DNA from: Candidatus Cloacimonadota bacterium
GTDB taxonomy: Bacteria; Cloacimonadota; Cloacimonadia; JGIOTU-2
Assembly: GCA_016932035.1 (NCBI GenBank)
Contig: JAFGDR010000052.1
Coordinates: 1 to 59,689, forward strand
Direction of reading: 5' to 3'
Length of the DNA: 59,689 nt
In this document: positions 33,877-40,182 of the stretch, one piece after another
How positions within the stretch are numbered: position 1 is the first letter of the stretch
How the letters are laid out: the number at the start of each line of letters is the position of its first letter
Notes under the pieces: generated by a model
The model's input: the letters and a program-made list of their open reading frames with translations, nothing else
The model's database searches: none
What the model was told of the DNA's origin: nothing
Made by a program: the position numbers and the translations under genes

Positions 33877-35598
33877 ATGAAAAAAAGTTTATTTTTTACA
33901 GTCTTATGTTGTATTGTGTTTTCTCTCTCTTTACATGCAGAATGGTCATCAAATCCATCAGTTAATACAGGTGTGTGTACCTTGCCCGGTGAAGATGCCA
34001 TTCCAAAAGTGGTAGCAGGACCTTTGGGCGATATCTATGTGGGGTACTTTGCCAACGAAGAAGGTAATTATAATGTCCGTTTGCAGCGTTATGATGCCGC
34101 AGGTAACGCATTATGGGCTTCGAACGGAATACTCGTTAGCGATAACACAGCCATGACATGGCTCACAGATTGGGATATGACTGTGGATCATGACAACTCA
34201 GCAATCCTGACATTCCAGGATATTCGAGATGGCAATAACAATGTGTATGCATATAGAATTTCTCCAGAAGGGACATTTGTATGGGGTGCAAACGGGTTGC
34301 AGCTTTCGAACTCAACCGCCTTTGACGCAGCTCCCAAAGTAGCGGTTACGAGCAGCAATAATGCAGTGGTTGTATGGAGTTCTGACGATGTGGCAAGACT
34401 GCAAAAAATCAGCCCGGAAGGAACGCTTCTTTGGGGAGCGACCGGCATTGAAATTTCCGGGACAAACAGCTATACATGGCCACAGCCGATCGCTGTTGAA
34501 AACGATATGGTAATCGTGAAATATTTTGAAGATTCAGGGGTTCCATGGGCGCCTACACGCTACATATATGCTCAAAAGTATGATGCGAACGGTAATGCAT
34601 TATGGGCACCGCCTTGTGCGATCTCAACCGCAGGGAGTATCTCGGCATGGACACAGGACCTGGCGATCATTCCAGACAGCAATTTCGGTTTCTTTATCGG
34701 TTGGCATGACGACAGAGATTCTAATATGAATGCAGATGTCTATGTGCAGCATGTGAATTCCAGTGGCACGTGTCTCTTTTTGAATTTTGGTGTTCCTGCT
34801 TCTACGAACACTGGAAACGAGCATTACTACCCGTTCCTTGCCTATCTTGAGAATACGCAAATGCTCTATGTATATTGGAACGAGATGGATGCTGATCAGA
34901 ATAATCGTGGTATATACGGGCAAAAATTTAATATGACCGGCACAAGGCTCTGGGAAGATTCTGGAAGGATGATCCTTCCTCTTACCCTTACAGACATCTA
35001 TCCTTTTGGTATCGGGCATACGGATACTTTTGTATCAGTATACTATACAGAGGGATTGGTCGATGATCACGTAAAAGCAATGGCTCTCGATTCAAATGGA
35101 GATTTCCTCTGGCCAGGTAACAGCGTAACAATGTGCTCTGTTAACTCATCAAAAGTACACCCGGTAGTAAGTACCTTGACCGGTTCACAATGGATAGCTG
35201 GCTGGGAGGACGAACGAAGCGGAAGAGATATCTATGCCCAGAACATCAATACGGATGGAACACTCGGCTATATACCTGTTTCTGTCGAGCCGGAATATGA
35301 TGCGAGTACTGCACTGCTTACTGCTGCGCCAAATCCTTTTTTGAGTTCAACCACGCTGAAATTCAATAAAACCACCCGGCTTCTCTCCGATACGCCGCAG
35401 CAGACAGAGATAAAGATTTATAATATTAAAGGTCAACTCATCAGAAAATTCCCCTTCACCTCTTCCACCCATCTCTCTGTCGAAGTAACATGGGATGGAA
35501 AAGATGAGAATGGGAATGAAGTAGTCCAGGGAATCTATTTATTTAAAGCAAGTATTAGTAATGAAGAATTTTTTCAAAAAGTGGTAAAAATTCAATAA
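33877..35598 (+). CDS. Secreted repeat protein of unknown function with T9SS sorting domain
   Basis: A 573-residue exported protein. The signal peptide (ending SLSLHA) is followed by about seven repeats containing a YDAAGNALWASNG-like unit. Examples are LQRYDAAGNALW, ISPEGTFVWGANG, ISPEGTLLWGATG, KYDANGNALW, FNMTGTRLWEDSG and LDSNGDFLWPGN. These repeats suggest a beta-propeller, but the count is approximate. The T9SS sorting domain occupies the last roughly 80 residues (APNPFLSSTT ... IYNIKGQLIRKFP ... WDGKDENG). Its coding DNA is nearly identical to that of the gene at 5166-6695. AAGGAG precedes the ATG. No catalytic motif was seen. Confidence 0.82.
   Translation: MKKSLFFTVLCCIVFSLSLHAEWSSNPSVNTGVCTLPGEDAIPKVVAGPLGDIYVGYFANEEGNYNVRLQRYDAAGNALWASNGILVSDNTAMTWLTDWDMTVDHDNSAILTFQDIRDGNNNVYAYRISPEGTFVWGANGLQLSNSTAFDAAPKVAVTSSNNAVVVWSSDDVARLQKISPEGTLLWGATGIEISGTNSYTWPQPIAVENDMVIVKYFEDSGVPWAPTRYIYAQKYDANGNALWAPPCAISTAGSISAWTQDLAIIPDSNFGFFIGWHDDRDSNMNADVYVQHVNSSGTCLFLNFGVPASTNTGNEHYYPFLAYLENTQMLYVYWNEMDADQNNRGIYGQKFNMTGTRLWEDSGRMILPLTLTDIYPFGIGHTDTFVSVYYTEGLVDDHVKAMALDSNGDFLWPGNSVTMCSVNSSKVHPVVSTLTGSQWIAGWEDERSGRDIYAQNINTDGTLGYIPVSVEPEYDASTALLTAAPNPFLSSTTLKFNKTTRLLSDTPQQTEIKIYNIKGQLIRKFPFTSSTHLSVEVTWDGKDENGNEVVQGIYLFKASISNEEFFQKVVKIQ
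35371..35510 (+). repeat. Near-identical T9SS sorting-domain cassette (partner at 5258-5397, minus strand)
   Basis: Counting by eye, this stretch and the reverse complement of 5258-5397 differ at about ten positions in roughly 130 aligned bases. The flanking coding sequences of the two genes are not recognisably alike. Both stretches encode QQTEIKIYNIKGQLIRK and the following residues. Confidence 0.8.
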
Positions 35599-35622
35599 TC
35601 TCAATAAACTTTACAACAATTC

Positions 35623-35654
35623 AACCTCGCAGCAAACACGGAGCGAGGTTTTTG
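35623..35654 (+). terminator. Terminator-like hairpin overlapping the ribosome-binding site of the endonuclease gene
   Basis: AACCTCGC (35623-35630) pairs perfectly with GCGAGGTT (35643-35650) around a 12-base loop and is followed by TTTTT. It is positioned as the terminator of the preceding gene. However, the next ATG is at 35657, and GAGG of the 3' arm is the only plausible Shine-Dalgarno sequence for it. Confidence 0.75.
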
Positions 35655-35656
35655 AT

Positions 35657-36721
35657 ATGAAAAAAGTAGTTTTTAGTATTGCAATGTTGCTTACATGTGT
35701 TTCTTTTCTCTGTGCAGATTATTATGACGGCACAGAAGGATTGTATGGCGATGAGCTCAAAACAGCCCTGTACAATATTATCAAAGGTCATACAGAATAT
35801 TACTATGCCGATCTCAGGGATTATATTCTCATTAATACCGACGAAGATCCGGAAAATTCTAACAATGTCATTCTGATATATACAGGGCACTCCCAGGATA
35901 AAGATACTTTTGGTGGACTGCTCGATGAGTGGAACCGAGAGCATGTCTGGGCAAAATCACATGGGGATTTCGGAACAACACCACCAGCTGGAACGGATGC
36001 ACATCATATACGACCCTCCGATGTCGGAGTGAATTCGATCCGCGGGAATAAAGATTTCGATTACGGTGGCGATCCCGTGTATGGCTATTATGGAGACTTT
36101 GCCGGAAATACAGACAGTGATTCATTCGAGCCAAGAGATGATGCAAAGGGAGATATTGCACGAATGATCATGTACATGGCAGTTCGCTATGAAGGCGAGA
36201 ATGGTGAACCTGATCTTGAAATGGTGGATTATATCCCATCATCGCCGGACGGACAGCCTTATCATGCAAAGGAGAGCACGCTGATTCAGTGGCATCTAGA
36301 TGACCCGGTCGATTCATTTGAAATGCTGAGGAATGAGAAAATTTATACAAACTGGCAGCACAATCGCAACCCGTTCATCGATCATCCTGAATTTGCTCAA
36401 CGAATCTGGTGCTATGCTATCGATGATCCTTCGGTGGGAAATGTTACCATTGAAGCATATCCCAATCCATTCAAGACTTTAACAATGATATCATTTAATT
36501 TGAATTCGGATTTGCGCGAATTAGCTCAAGTGAAGATTTACAATATGAAAGGGCAGCTAATCAAAACCCTTTCCTCATTCCCAAACCCCAGCTTGGGAAC
36601 GCAAAGTGTTGTGTGGGATGGCAGGGATGAAAACAATCAATCCATTCACAGTGGTATCTACTTTTGTGTAATCGATGCAGGTGAAAAGCAGATCGTAAAA
36701 AAACTAACATTTATTCAATAA
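35657..36721 (+). CDS. Secreted endonuclease I (EndA/NucM family) with T9SS sorting domain
   Basis: A 354-residue exported nuclease. After the signal peptide (ending SFLCA) comes the endonuclease I domain. It has ILIYTG, then NREHVWAKSHGDFG (about 93-107) and DAHHIRPSDVGVNSIRGNKDFDYG (about 114-137). This HNH-like beta-beta-alpha metal arrangement carries catalytic His and the metal-binding Asn. The enzyme should cleave DNA, and possibly RNA, non-specifically outside the cell, for nutrient or phosphate scavenging or biofilm DNA turnover. The sorting domain (YPNPFKTLT ... IYNMKGQLIKTLS ... KKLTFIQ) is at the C-terminus. The start is tightly downstream of a terminator-like hairpin that contains its ribosome-binding site. 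Confidence 0.92.
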   Translation: MKKVVFSIAMLLTCVSFLCADYYDGTEGLYGDELKTALYNIIKGHTEYYYADLRDYILINTDEDPENSNNVILIYTGHSQDKDTFGGLLDEWNREHVWAKSHGDFGTTPPAGTDAHHIRPSDVGVNSIRGNKDFDYGGDPVYGYYGDFAGNTDSDSFEPRDDAKGDIARMIMYMAVRYEGENGEPDLEMVDYIPSSPDGQPYHAKESTLIQWHLDDPVDSFEMLRNEKIYTNWQHNRNPFIDHPEFAQRIWCYAIDDPSVGNVTIEAYPNPFKTLTMISFNLNSDLRELAQVKIYNMKGQLIKTLSSFPNPSLGTQSVVWDGRDENNQSIHSGIYFCVIDAGEKQIVKKLTFIQ

Positions 36722-36742: not shown

Positions 36743-36779
36743 AAGGGCGAAATCATCATGACTTCGCCCTTGTTTTTTT
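36743..36779. terminator. Bidirectional hairpin terminator
   Basis: AAGGGCGAA (36743-36751) pairs with TTCGCCCTT (36763-36771). Seven T follow on the plus strand and five on the minus strand. It serves the convergent endonuclease and C10 protease genes. Confidence 0.88.
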
Positions 36780-36788
36780 AGAAATATT

Positions 36789-39700
36789 TTATTTAAGTAA
36801 GATCAATTTCTTAATGTCAGACTGATATGTATCGGTTTCTAATCGGTAGAAATAGACACCATTTGGGATGTCATTTCCGCTGTTGTCTTTACCGTTCCAT
36901 TCAAATGTATTATCACCCGCTTTTGGATTATCGATGTCATAAGATGAGACAAGCTGTCCAAGCAGGTTATAAACCCTGAGCTGAGGATTTTGTATCTGTG
37001 TATTTGGAAGTCCAAAGGAAATCGTTGTCTGGTTTGCTACAGGATTTGGGAAGTTCTGTGTGATGAAGAAGTCATGATTCTGCGGATTGCTTCCAACGCC
37101 TGTCTTTTGCGTACAGTCAACTGAACCTGTTCTTGCCAGGTCATAACGATAGATGCCGCACAGGAGATCGCCTTCGCCATACGGGGTCTTATAATCGATG
37201 ATCCACATGCCTGCACTTGTACCGAAAGCGATATCATAATCACCGTCATTATCGAAATCAGCTATTTGCGGTGAGGATTTAATATCATAATCAACATAGA
37301 TCGGGAATTCTGCTAATGCATTGCCATTCATATCTAAACCGTATAAATACTTGTCATTGCATCCGAAGATGATATCATACACACCGTTTCCGTCGATATC
37401 ACCGACTGCTGGTGTGGATTCGACATCACCGGGAAGATCGTAGGGAAATCCCGCAAGAGTATTACCGTTCCAGTCCAGGACATAGAGTTTATCACTGTTT
37501 GAACCGACAATAATGACAAGGTCGTTGATAACATTCGAATTTGTTGGATTGATAACAACAGGAGAGGTGCGGATATCACCGGAAAGAGGAAATTCATCGA
37601 TAATCGTACCTTCGTTATCTAATTTGGTAAGGGTACCATCAGCAGCACCAACAAGTATGTAATAATCATCAATGAACTTCACGATCGTTGCAGATCCGTG
37701 AGGTGCAGCAGAGAGAGTTGCCTGCCAGGCAATCACGCCTGTTTCGTCTATACAATAGAGCACACCATCATTACAGGGGATCAGCATCTCTTTGATGCCG
37801 TCACCGTTGAGATCTTCAACTGCAGCACCAACACCGCTGTACATAAAGTTCGGAAGCGTGATCGGGAAGTTCGGGTAGATCGTACCCGTTTGATCGACAA
37901 CATAGAGATTTTTTGTAATCGTCTGTACAATTATCTCTTTGACGCCATCACCTGTGAGGTCGGTTACAACTGGGGTGCAGAGAATATTACTGTCCGTTGT
38001 ATAATCCAAAACAACACTACCATCAGGATCAAGACCGATAATTTTATTTGCACGTGAGGCAGCAATAATTTCTAAGTCATCGTCAGCATCGATATTTGCA
38101 ACGGCAACTGAGCCGTAAATCTGATTGGTCGTATTATAAGGGAATCCGCCTTGTTCTGTTCCGCTCATATTATACAGGTGTACTTCTCCATTTTTATCCC
38201 CACAGGCAAGCTCGAGTTCGTTATCAGCATTGTCAAGGTCTGCGACTGCAGGTGAACCGGGAACTCCATTTGTTATCAAAACAGGCCAGCCAGCGAGATC
38301 GAGTGTAACATCTATATCAAATTCAAGGTCTGCGTAGTAGCCACTATTACTTGTTACATGGAGGTTAAAAGGTATGGAGCAAACGCCGATACCTTCGTCA
38401 AATTCAATCACAAAAGGATCCAGAAGATTAAGCTGTGATGAACCCGCAGGAATATCGTTGTAAGTTCCGGTTGGATCCGTAATTGTTGCACGGGGATCGG
38501 TGGTTTCCAGGGTAGCAACAACGCTTGTTGCAGTAGAGAAACTCTGTCTGTTGGTCAGGCGCACACGAACCTGTGCGGTTTCACCTGGATTGACTTTTCC
38601 ATCTCCATCTCCTGAAAGTTCGGACACGAACATTTCATCAAATTCAATAAACGGGTAAATACCACCCTGTATATTCATAACTGCATTATCAACCGTCGTG
38701 AAACCGGCAGGCATTCCACTTGGGAGCGAGTACCAGCCATTGTATGAACCAGCCCATCCGAAATTGAGATGGTAGGTTTCTTCACTAGTATTATATCCAT
38801 CAACATTGATGGCATGTCCACCAGCACCGGTGATTCCCATTTCACATGGTCTTGCATTCATCATATCCTGCTGCATCACGGTATAAAAATTCGGGTGTGA
38901 TGAATAATAATGTGTTGCTGAATCAAATCCGAATCGTGTCAGAAGTTCATTACGAACATCAGAGCAATATGCTCCTGAACCATCTGAGGAGTATTTCATC
39001 TCTACGGAGAAACCGCAGGCAACGGAAATAACGGCTTTCATCTGGTTGTCGAGAGGGGTATTCGTCTGATAGAATGTACGGAGCTGGTCGAGGAGGAGAT
39101 TCAATTCCGAGAATGAGGGGAAATCAAGAGAGTTATGGTCATTATCAATATAGATATAGGGAGTTGTATAATTGGACACATAATCATCGCTGTCATCAAA
39201 GGAAGCACTGCCGATATATCGGTGATAATCAACGATCATTGACATTGCTGTGGCAACACATCCGACTACCGATCTTCCACCATTTTGGGGATCGAGCGGA
39301 CAATATACATTCCATGGATAGCCCTGATCATAAAGCTGTTCTATCCAGCCGCCGGTGGATGTTGTACCTGTTGGCGGGTAAATATCTCTATCCTTTGCTT
39401 TTGAAATGAAATATTCCACATCTTGGTTTTCGTATTTCTTCCATAGCATGTTATTCTGAGAGAGAATATCTGATGATGTGAAAGGAATTGCTTCATTACG
39501 AAGGGAAAGGTCTTGAGTAACATAGTGTTGCCCGATCGTCCATTCCCCTTCTTCGGGCACTTCGTAATTATGGATGAAAGAATAACCAAGAATCGGGACA
39601 ATATCAGTATCAGTTGTTACAATTATAAAACCCTGGGGATCAAGATGAAAAACATATGCAAGTACCGCGTTATCATCTCCCTTAAGTTCATAAAAATTAT

Positions 39701-39842
39701 TAATAATAAAATCGCTTTTACTTTCTACCTGCAATTTCGTTCGTGCTGTTTGTTCTGCCAGGTTATATGATACCGGCACTGCTGATAAAGCAACAGCGAA
39801 AAGCAGCAGGAAAGCACAAGTCACAAAAAATCTTTTTTTCAT
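36789..39842 (-). CDS. Secreted C10-family (streptopain-like) cysteine protease with beta-propeller and T9SS sorting domain
   Basis: About 1017 residues. The signal peptide is followed by a propeptide-like segment, then the C10 papain-like domain. Catalytic Cys lies in VVGCVATAMSMI (about residue 195) and His in GAGGHAINVDGY (about 343). A CARDB-like beta domain (VNPGETAQVRVRLTN) comes next, then at least six VCBS/FG-GAP repeats such as VADLDNADNELELACGDKNGEVHLY and VGDIDGNGVYDIIFGCNDKYLYGL, and finally a T9SS sorting domain ending KKLILLK. It should be a secreted endopeptidase anchored or targeted by the propeller. The ATG at 39842 is preferred over one 141 bases upstream because GGAGG and the signal peptide match it. 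Confidence 0.92.
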   Translation of the reverse strand: MKKRFFVTCAFLLLFAVALSAVPVSYNLAEQTARTKLQVESKSDFIINNFYELKGDDNAVLAYVFHLDPQGFIIVTTDTDIVPILGYSFIHNYEVPEEGEWTIGQHYVTQDLSLRNEAIPFTSSDILSQNNMLWKKYENQDVEYFISKAKDRDIYPPTGTTSTGGWIEQLYDQGYPWNVYCPLDPQNGGRSVVGCVATAMSMIVDYHRYIGSASFDDSDDYVSNYTTPYIYIDNDHNSLDFPSFSELNLLLDQLRTFYQTNTPLDNQMKAVISVACGFSVEMKYSSDGSGAYCSDVRNELLTRFGFDSATHYYSSHPNFYTVMQQDMMNARPCEMGITGAGGHAINVDGYNTSEETYHLNFGWAGSYNGWYSLPSGMPAGFTTVDNAVMNIQGGIYPFIEFDEMFVSELSGDGDGKVNPGETAQVRVRLTNRQSFSTATSVVATLETTDPRATITDPTGTYNDIPAGSSQLNLLDPFVIEFDEGIGVCSIPFNLHVTSNSGYYADLEFDIDVTLDLAGWPVLITNGVPGSPAVADLDNADNELELACGDKNGEVHLYNMSGTEQGGFPYNTTNQIYGSVAVANIDADDDLEIIAASRANKIIGLDPDGSVVLDYTTDSNILCTPVVTDLTGDGVKEIIVQTITKNLYVVDQTGTIYPNFPITLPNFMYSGVGAAVEDLNGDGIKEMLIPCNDGVLYCIDETGVIAWQATLSAAPHGSATIVKFIDDYYILVGAADGTLTKLDNEGTIIDEFPLSGDIRTSPVVINPTNSNVINDLVIIVGSNSDKLYVLDWNGNTLAGFPYDLPGDVESTPAVGDIDGNGVYDIIFGCNDKYLYGLDMNGNALAEFPIYVDYDIKSSPQIADFDNDGDYDIAFGTSAGMWIIDYKTPYGEGDLLCGIYRYDLARTGSVDCTQKTGVGSNPQNHDFFITQNFPNPVANQTTISFGLPNTQIQNPQLRVYNLLGQLVSSYDIDNPKAGDNTFEWNGKDNSGNDIPNGVYFYRLETDTYQSDIKKLILLK

Positions 39843-39867
39843 TGTAGGCCTCCGTTCTTTTATATAA

Positions 39868-39895
39868 TTTATGCCGAATAGGGTATTTATGTCAA
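39868..39895 (-). promoter_or_regulatory. Putative sigma70-like promoter of the C10 protease gene
   Basis: On the minus strand TTGACA (39895-39890), 16-base spacer, CATAAA (39873-39868), 25 bases before the start codon. Confidence 0.4.
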
Positions 39896-39921
39896 TCTTT
39901 TTTGGGTTATGAACTATGCAT

Positions 39922-40182
39922 TTATGTGGTTTGATTTCGTACAAGAAGCTTATAATAATTCTGCACATCCGATTTTCCGACATTCCCTTTGGGGATTTCT
40001 GTAATCTCGCATTCGAGGATGAAACCGTAGAGTGTCATCTTGATGATGTCTCCAACCTGTACTTTTTTCGAGGGTTTCGCAGGATCGCCATTGATCAACA
40101 CGAGTCCTTTATCACATGCTTTTTTTGCAATTGATCGGTGCTTGACCATGCAGAGTTTGTCGAGCAGGACATCGATTCTCAT
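39922..40182 (-). CDS. S4-domain RNA-binding protein (HslR/RqcP-like)
   Basis: An 86-residue basic protein that is essentially one S4 domain: MRIDVLLDKLCMVKHRSIAKKACDKG, then VLINGDPAKPSKKVQVGDII. This is the architecture of Hsp15 (HslR) and RqcP, which bind the large ribosomal subunit carrying stalled peptidyl-tRNA. Which of the two it resembles functionally cannot be judged from 86 residues. It starts one base after the stop of the GH10-like gene, at the end of the xseA operon. No signal peptide is present. Confidence 0.85.
   Translation of the reverse strand: MRIDVLLDKLCMVKHRSIAKKACDKGLVLINGDPAKPSKKVQVGDIIKMTLYGFILECEITEIPKGNVGKSDVQNYYKLLVRNQTT

Follow-up and report, generated by a model that had tools for sequence, protein, structure and literature searches.

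A hairpin with a predicted internal promoter may insulate a secreted endonuclease I gene of Candidatus Celaenobacter from upstream transcription

We propose, with about even chances of being right, that the 55 nt preceding the ATG of a secreted endonuclease I gene in Candidatus Celaenobacter are the nuclease's own promoter and leader, interleaved with a hairpin that insulates the gene from transcription arriving from upstream. The anatomy of this element, its conservation, the position of a −35-like box and the predicted locking of its Shine–Dalgarno (SD)-like word were all computed. The gene lies in a window (the whole 59,689-nt stretch of Candidatus Cloacimonadota DNA that was analyzed), whose genus was judged by the nearest named relative, L031 (C. 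antarcticus). In a profile search, the product matched PF04231 with E = 3.9e-36 and also showed a Por-type secretion tail; a 58-nt gap separates its gene from one for a protein with an FlgD tail (Table 1). Downstream, a convergent gene (36789–39983, minus strand) encodes a large peptidase C10 protein that also bears a Spi-type inhibitor domain, propeller-type repeats and an FlgD/Por secretion tail, and a 13-pair hairpin (36743–36771) lies between this gene and that of the nuclease.

Table 1. Features of the nuclease gene, its leader and the gene upstream, in window coordinates
Feature	Position	Strand	Basis or remark
Upstream co-directional gene, FlgD-like C-terminal domain	33877..35598	+	stop 58 nt before the nuclease ATG
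AATAAACTTTACAA block, 14/14 bases invariant in the 5 Celaenobacter genomes with the gene; just 5′ of the hairpin	35603..35616	+	alignment
Predicted −35 box TTTACA, 47 nt from the ATG	35610..35615	+	predicted from position and conservation
Hairpin/dyad 5′ arm AACCTCGC	35623..35630	+	sequence, fold
Loop AGCAAACACGGA, 12 bases; predicted place of the −10 region	35631..35642	+	sequence
3′ arm GCGAGGTT, with SD-like GAGG (35645–35648) and predicted transcription start (~35645 ± 3)	35643..35650	+	start predicted
T run, five T, the first two within the stem	35649..35653	+	sequence; all five aligned leaders have at least 5 consecutive T
Endonuclease I (PF04231), Por-type C-terminal secretion tail, signal-peptide-like N-terminus	35657..36721	+	N-terminus judged by eye

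A preliminary description of this DNA had placed a perfect 8-bp stem shortly before the ATG at 35657, and we could confirm that stem (35623–35630 paired with 35643–35650). It is the dominant feature of the predicted fold, with a predicted energy of −12.7 kcal/mol for the hairpin alone. The SD-like GAGG that had been assigned to the 3′ arm is also there, ending 8 nt before the ATG, which is a usual position for an SD; the arm is followed by TTTGAT and then by the ATG (35657–35659). The five T said to come after the stem do exist as a run, but only three of them follow the 8-bp stem, because the first two are its last two bases (five follow the 6-bp core). The hairpin, with its 12-base loop, was absent from the list of a terminator scan that admitted loops of 3–8 only, and a search of Rfam 15 over 35400–36000, at E values up to 1, returned four matches, none of which came anywhere near its gathering score.

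By itself, the stem is unremarkable. Our genome sample combined the window with 14 other stretches of its genome (L112–L125), amounting to 338,589 bases and 244 genes, 243 of which had enough upstream sequence; gene starts were set by a simple rule favoring SD-bearing starts, not by annotation. SD words are in use in this genome, a match of at least 4 bases being found before 136 of the 244 first in-frame ATGs, compared with 20.5% of 6046 intragenic ATGs. Stems of at least 8 pairs ending at most 25 nt from the start were found for 8 of the 243 genes (the nuclease included) versus 5.1 in dinucleotide shuffles, so that the stem alone does not go beyond chance and pre-start hairpins are apparently not a general habit of the genome. 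Folding of the 121-nt region overall is likewise no better than that of shuffles (z = 0.05). A stricter rule, demanding at least 7 perfect pairs, including at least 4 GC pairs, together with a T-rich tail no more than 20 nt from the start, retained 2 of the 243 genes, and for close variants of it 0.05–0.15 cases were expected in simple base shuffles. The other of these two cases (L120:3570–4805, minus strand) is a terminator-like hairpin with seven T, which ends 12 nt before the ATG. Elsewhere in the sample, at L118:11632–12087 (minus strand), a stem CTCGTCGT...ACGACGAG runs into an SD-like GAGGAG directly before the start codon. The interest of the nuclease hairpin comes from its conservation.

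Five of the eight genomes of the genus that were searched, the window's own included, carry the nuclease gene at 82% amino acid identity or more, and these five members (window, L031, L032, L033 and L034) were aligned. All of them keep the leader of ~55 nt, from the start of the AATAAACTTTACAA block through the ATG. Over the ten pairs of genomes, leader identity is 81–96%, compared with 32–70% at the fourfold-degenerate sites of the same gene, implying that the leader is under strong selection. The conserved block begins abruptly: 5′ of AATAAACTTTACAA the five sequences no longer align well, and L031 and L032 resemble each other further upstream. The bases that are invariant among the five amount to 6/8 in the 5′ arm, 5/7 in the 3′ arm, 7/10 in the loop and 3/7 in the spacer that precedes the stem. 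The leader is kept although the upstream gene differs, which ties the element to the nuclease; the upstream frame is co-directional in all five, and it encodes an FlgD-type protein in the window (58 nt away) and in L034 (67 nt away). The contigs of L033 and L034 begin near the upstream ORF. In L031, L032 and L033, a small hydrophobic ORF of 81–91 codons lies 80–94 nt before the nuclease; it was not found there in the window or in L034.

When stem conservation in relatives was checked, as the preliminary description had suggested, the outcome was mixed: the stem is strong in three of the five members and weakened in two, with predicted hairpin energies of −12.7 (window), −13.4 (L031), −3.9 (L032), −15.9 (L033) and −8.0 kcal/mol (L034). 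Out of 45 pair cells, 41 pair and four are broken, the pair-breaking changes being one in each arm of L032 and one in L034. No pair among the 45 cells is altered on both sides, meaning that there is no compensatory change. Because of this, and because the arms are broken in L032 and L034, the stem is kept as sequence more than as structure, which counts as genuine evidence that the RNA structure is not strictly required.

The conserved TTTACA is very likely a −35 box. Within upstream regions of our sample, no hexamer is more over-represented than TTGACA (50 occurrences versus 9.0 expected). It lies mostly 45–80 nt before starts, and its density reaches 6.39/kb at 40–79 nt before starts, compared with 1.14/kb elsewhere; TTTACA itself is only mildly enriched (1.85/kb versus 0.84/kb). 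It stands 47–48 nt before the ATG in all five genus members, and a member of another genus (L013) has AAACTTTACA, with TTTACA at 46 nt. In wider counts, 25 of 31 nuclease copies from across the phylum (window included) and 7 of 10 further copies have TTGACA, TTTACA or TTGACT 44–62 nt before the start, against a background of 36 of the 243 sample genes, operon-internal genes included. The 31-copy set was made up of 30 of 59 matches, those with loci, plus L019, and 10 more matches formed the further set; the remaining 19, mostly much longer proteins, are outside the counts, as are the lower-identity copies L016–L018 and L020–L030, which were inspected. In the 31-copy set, L139 and L143, which have no ATG, were measured from the match start, and four starts were hand-picked. 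Altogether, 74 named loci were read in part.

A −10 consensus was sought by EM on 30 aligned TTGACA sites at the usual spacing, and the fit (24.5) fell within the range of shuffled controls (17.3–25.0). A 17-nt spacer would place the −10 element at 35633–35638, in the loop, where no recognizable −10 was seen. Consequently, we infer the start at about 35645 from distance, taking it to lie ~35 nt downstream of the first −35 base. The distance of 47 nt from the ATG is at the short end of TTGACA-to-start distances, and if transcription began just 2 nt later than we estimate, the GAGG would be truncated or lost.

In the mechanism that we propose, RNA polymerase would bind the −35 box and start within the 3′ arm. 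The nuclease's own mRNA would then have a leader of ~10–15 nt, in which the GAGG would lie close to the 5′ end; lacking the 5′ arm of the stem, this mRNA could not form the hairpin. Read-through RNA from the co-directional upstream gene would carry both arms and fold. The short T run may then bring transcription to an end, and any RNA that was not terminated would have its GAGG locked in the stem. Insulated in this way from upstream transcription, the nuclease would have its level set by its own promoter. The start site, the termination and the translation block are the parts of this scheme that we infer.

Fold predictions agree with the suggestion, made in the preliminary description, that the ribosome-binding site is hidden in read-through RNA. 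The predicted cost of freeing the GAGG there is 10.8 kcal/mol in the window, 10.4 in L031 and 13.2 in L033, and 3.2 and 2.3 kcal/mol in L032 and L034, respectively; in an own leader of 14–15 nt, it is 1.5–4.0 kcal/mol for all five. The mean probability that the GAGG is unpaired is 0.0 in the window's read-through RNA and low to moderate (0.02–0.74) in the own transcripts, the low exposure in the latter arising from pairing that the short leader can make with the beginning of the coding sequence. As modeled, then, the contrast between read-through and own RNA is one of energy, not of full GAGG exposure.

According to the preliminary description, expression of the nuclease may depend on antitermination, on an RNA-binding factor or on a promoter in the hairpin region. 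The last of these fits best, as the conserved −35-like TTTACA puts the predicted start at about 35645. This position falls inside 35643–35656, the interval in which a transcription start was to speak against the idea as first framed; by that test, the predicted start refutes the form of the idea in which the hairpin is part of the nuclease's own mRNA, and insulation against upstream transcription survives. The other two options found no support: for antitermination, the stems listed include no alternative stem common to the five genus members, and nothing points to an RNA-binding factor, no second clear copy of the dyad being present in the eight genus genomes.

The palindrome might instead act as double-stranded DNA, namely as a dyad operator (ACCTCGCA-N10-TGCGAGGT in the relatives) around the −10, where a repressor would block initiation. 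Such an operator would span the predicted −10/start region, as the dyad does; in both arms and loop it is the sequence that is conserved, with no compensatory change, and a DNA site tolerates single mismatches like those of L032 and L034. We nevertheless consider it unlikely, given that the eight genus genomes hold, at up to 3 mismatches, 16 matches besides the 5 at the nuclease versus 13 for a reversed control, the best other match (2 mismatches, L154) lying inside a long coding frame. Moreover, no regulator domain occurs in the three neighboring proteins scanned, and the dyads that relatives have at the same place are unrelated in sequence. A 15-nt block, searched for elsewhere in the eight genomes, gave two other near matches, both within open frames. 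A regulon defined by dyad and block was rejected, matches besides the nuclease being at control level only and the four inspected ones lying within open frames. If, on the other hand, transcription started upstream of the stem, the hairpin would be a switch in the leader of the nuclease's own mRNA, with termination or SD hiding relieved by a factor or by antitermination. Its combination of hairpin, T run and SD overlap resembles an attenuator, and the SD is predicted to be locked in any RNA with both arms. Yet the sole conserved promoter-like box is too near the stem for an upstream start, the five share no alternative stem among those listed, no Rfam match attains the gathering score and the stem has decayed in two of the five species, all of which makes such a switch improbable. 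As for a possible antiterminator, an 11-pair stem overlapping the −35 block was seen in L031 (= L008) and none among the stems listed (at most two each) for the other four members; this candidate was dropped.

It is similarly improbable that the element is merely the terminator of the upstream gene, tightly placed before the next one. The co-directional upstream frame of all five genus members would suit this explanation, and the window has no other listed terminator between the two genes, nor was one seen by eye in the relatives, but the element remains conserved before the nuclease even where a different gene precedes it, the window has three free T only and the stems of L032 and L034 are weak. 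As part of the proposed promoter-in-hairpin arrangement, the element may still terminate. That selection acts on the promoter only, the dyad being incidental, seems very improbable: although such stems occur near starts at about the frequency of the shuffles described above, conservation in the arms about equals that in the loop, and a plain promoter spacer should drift.

In three other lineages of the nuclease family, hairpins occur at the same place as the insulating hairpin proposed for Celaenobacter, with sequences unrelated to it. Those of g2/g4 (L014, L015 and L019) have 12–15 pairs and end 10–16 nt before the ATG, L014 and L015 being without a −35-like word at 44–62 nt; g40 (L140) has an 11-pair hairpin between TTGACA and an SD-like AAGG, and g44 (L138) has 8 pairs, with an SD-like GAGG in the 3′ arm and TTGACT at 50 nt. 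A stem of at least 8 pairs ending at most 25 nt from the start precedes 8 of the 31 phylum-wide copies, compared with 8 of the 243 genes of one genome. This recurrence is a lead, not a result, because the copies are not independent (three of the eight with a stem are from Celaenobacter), the background comes from a single genome and the comparison was made after the first cases had been seen. Among ten further relatives, such a hairpin was found in none (0/10). It is a tentative and, in our judgment, somewhat doubtful idea that one Cloacimonadota secreted-nuclease family gained promoter-in-hairpin insulators on several occasions, each unrelated in sequence to the others (Celaenobacter ACCTCGC; g2/g4 AAATAGCCTTG; g40 ATGCCTGCC; g44 CCTCTCAA).

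Intrinsic (Rho-independent) terminators consist of a GC-rich stem followed by T. The nuclease hairpin, predicted at −12.7 kcal/mol, is similar in having a GC-rich stem and then T, but it differs in its 12-base loop, its three free T, its decay in two relatives and its link to the downstream gene. At the level of prediction, the leader would work like the read-through-blocking hairpins of phage T4 gene e and of sigG. According to the portions of text available, the start sites of T4 genes e, soc, 49 and I-TevI are sequestered in an RNA helix of long transcripts, and gene e RNA from late promoters, which lie just upstream of the ribosome site, is without the 5′ part of the helix and is well translated (PMC3014915). 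With e and I-TevI, the nuclease leader would share a start site hidden in the longer RNA and, with e, an own-promoter RNA, here predicted, that is without the 5′ arm; for soc and 49, the sequestering helix alone is the likeness stated in that text (PMC3014915). The T4 cases were shown experimentally and involve phage late promoters, whereas the nuclease leader is predicted and chromosomal, its −35 resembles TTGACA and its T run might also cause termination.

In Bacillus subtilis, a large hairpin has been proposed to block translation of spoIIGA–sigE read-through RNA, and RNA made from sigG's own promoter cannot form it (PMC5942855). Like the nuclease, sigG is chromosomal and lies behind a co-directional operon, with its own promoter, as predicted for the nuclease, inside the hairpin region. 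It differs in its hairpin of 20+ pairs and its second, small RBS hairpin, and the available part of the sigG text does not mention a terminator-like tail (PMC5942855). In the Celaenobacter paper (PMC8542988), the main text, as far as it was available, contains no word beginning with "nuclease" or "DNase", and searches of the open literature that were broader than this gene alone found no report of the nuclease leader.

If our reading of the leader is right, the trick used by T4 and Bacillus, in which the start site is hidden in read-through RNA and the true RNA is begun within the hairpin, would extend to a secreted nuclease, and to a phylum with very little genetics. It would also give a simple reason why the nuclease gene can sit tightly behind another gene. 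Repeated acquisition of such elements in the family, if true, would suggest that accidental expression of the nuclease from neighboring genes is selected against, as for the T4 endonucleases.
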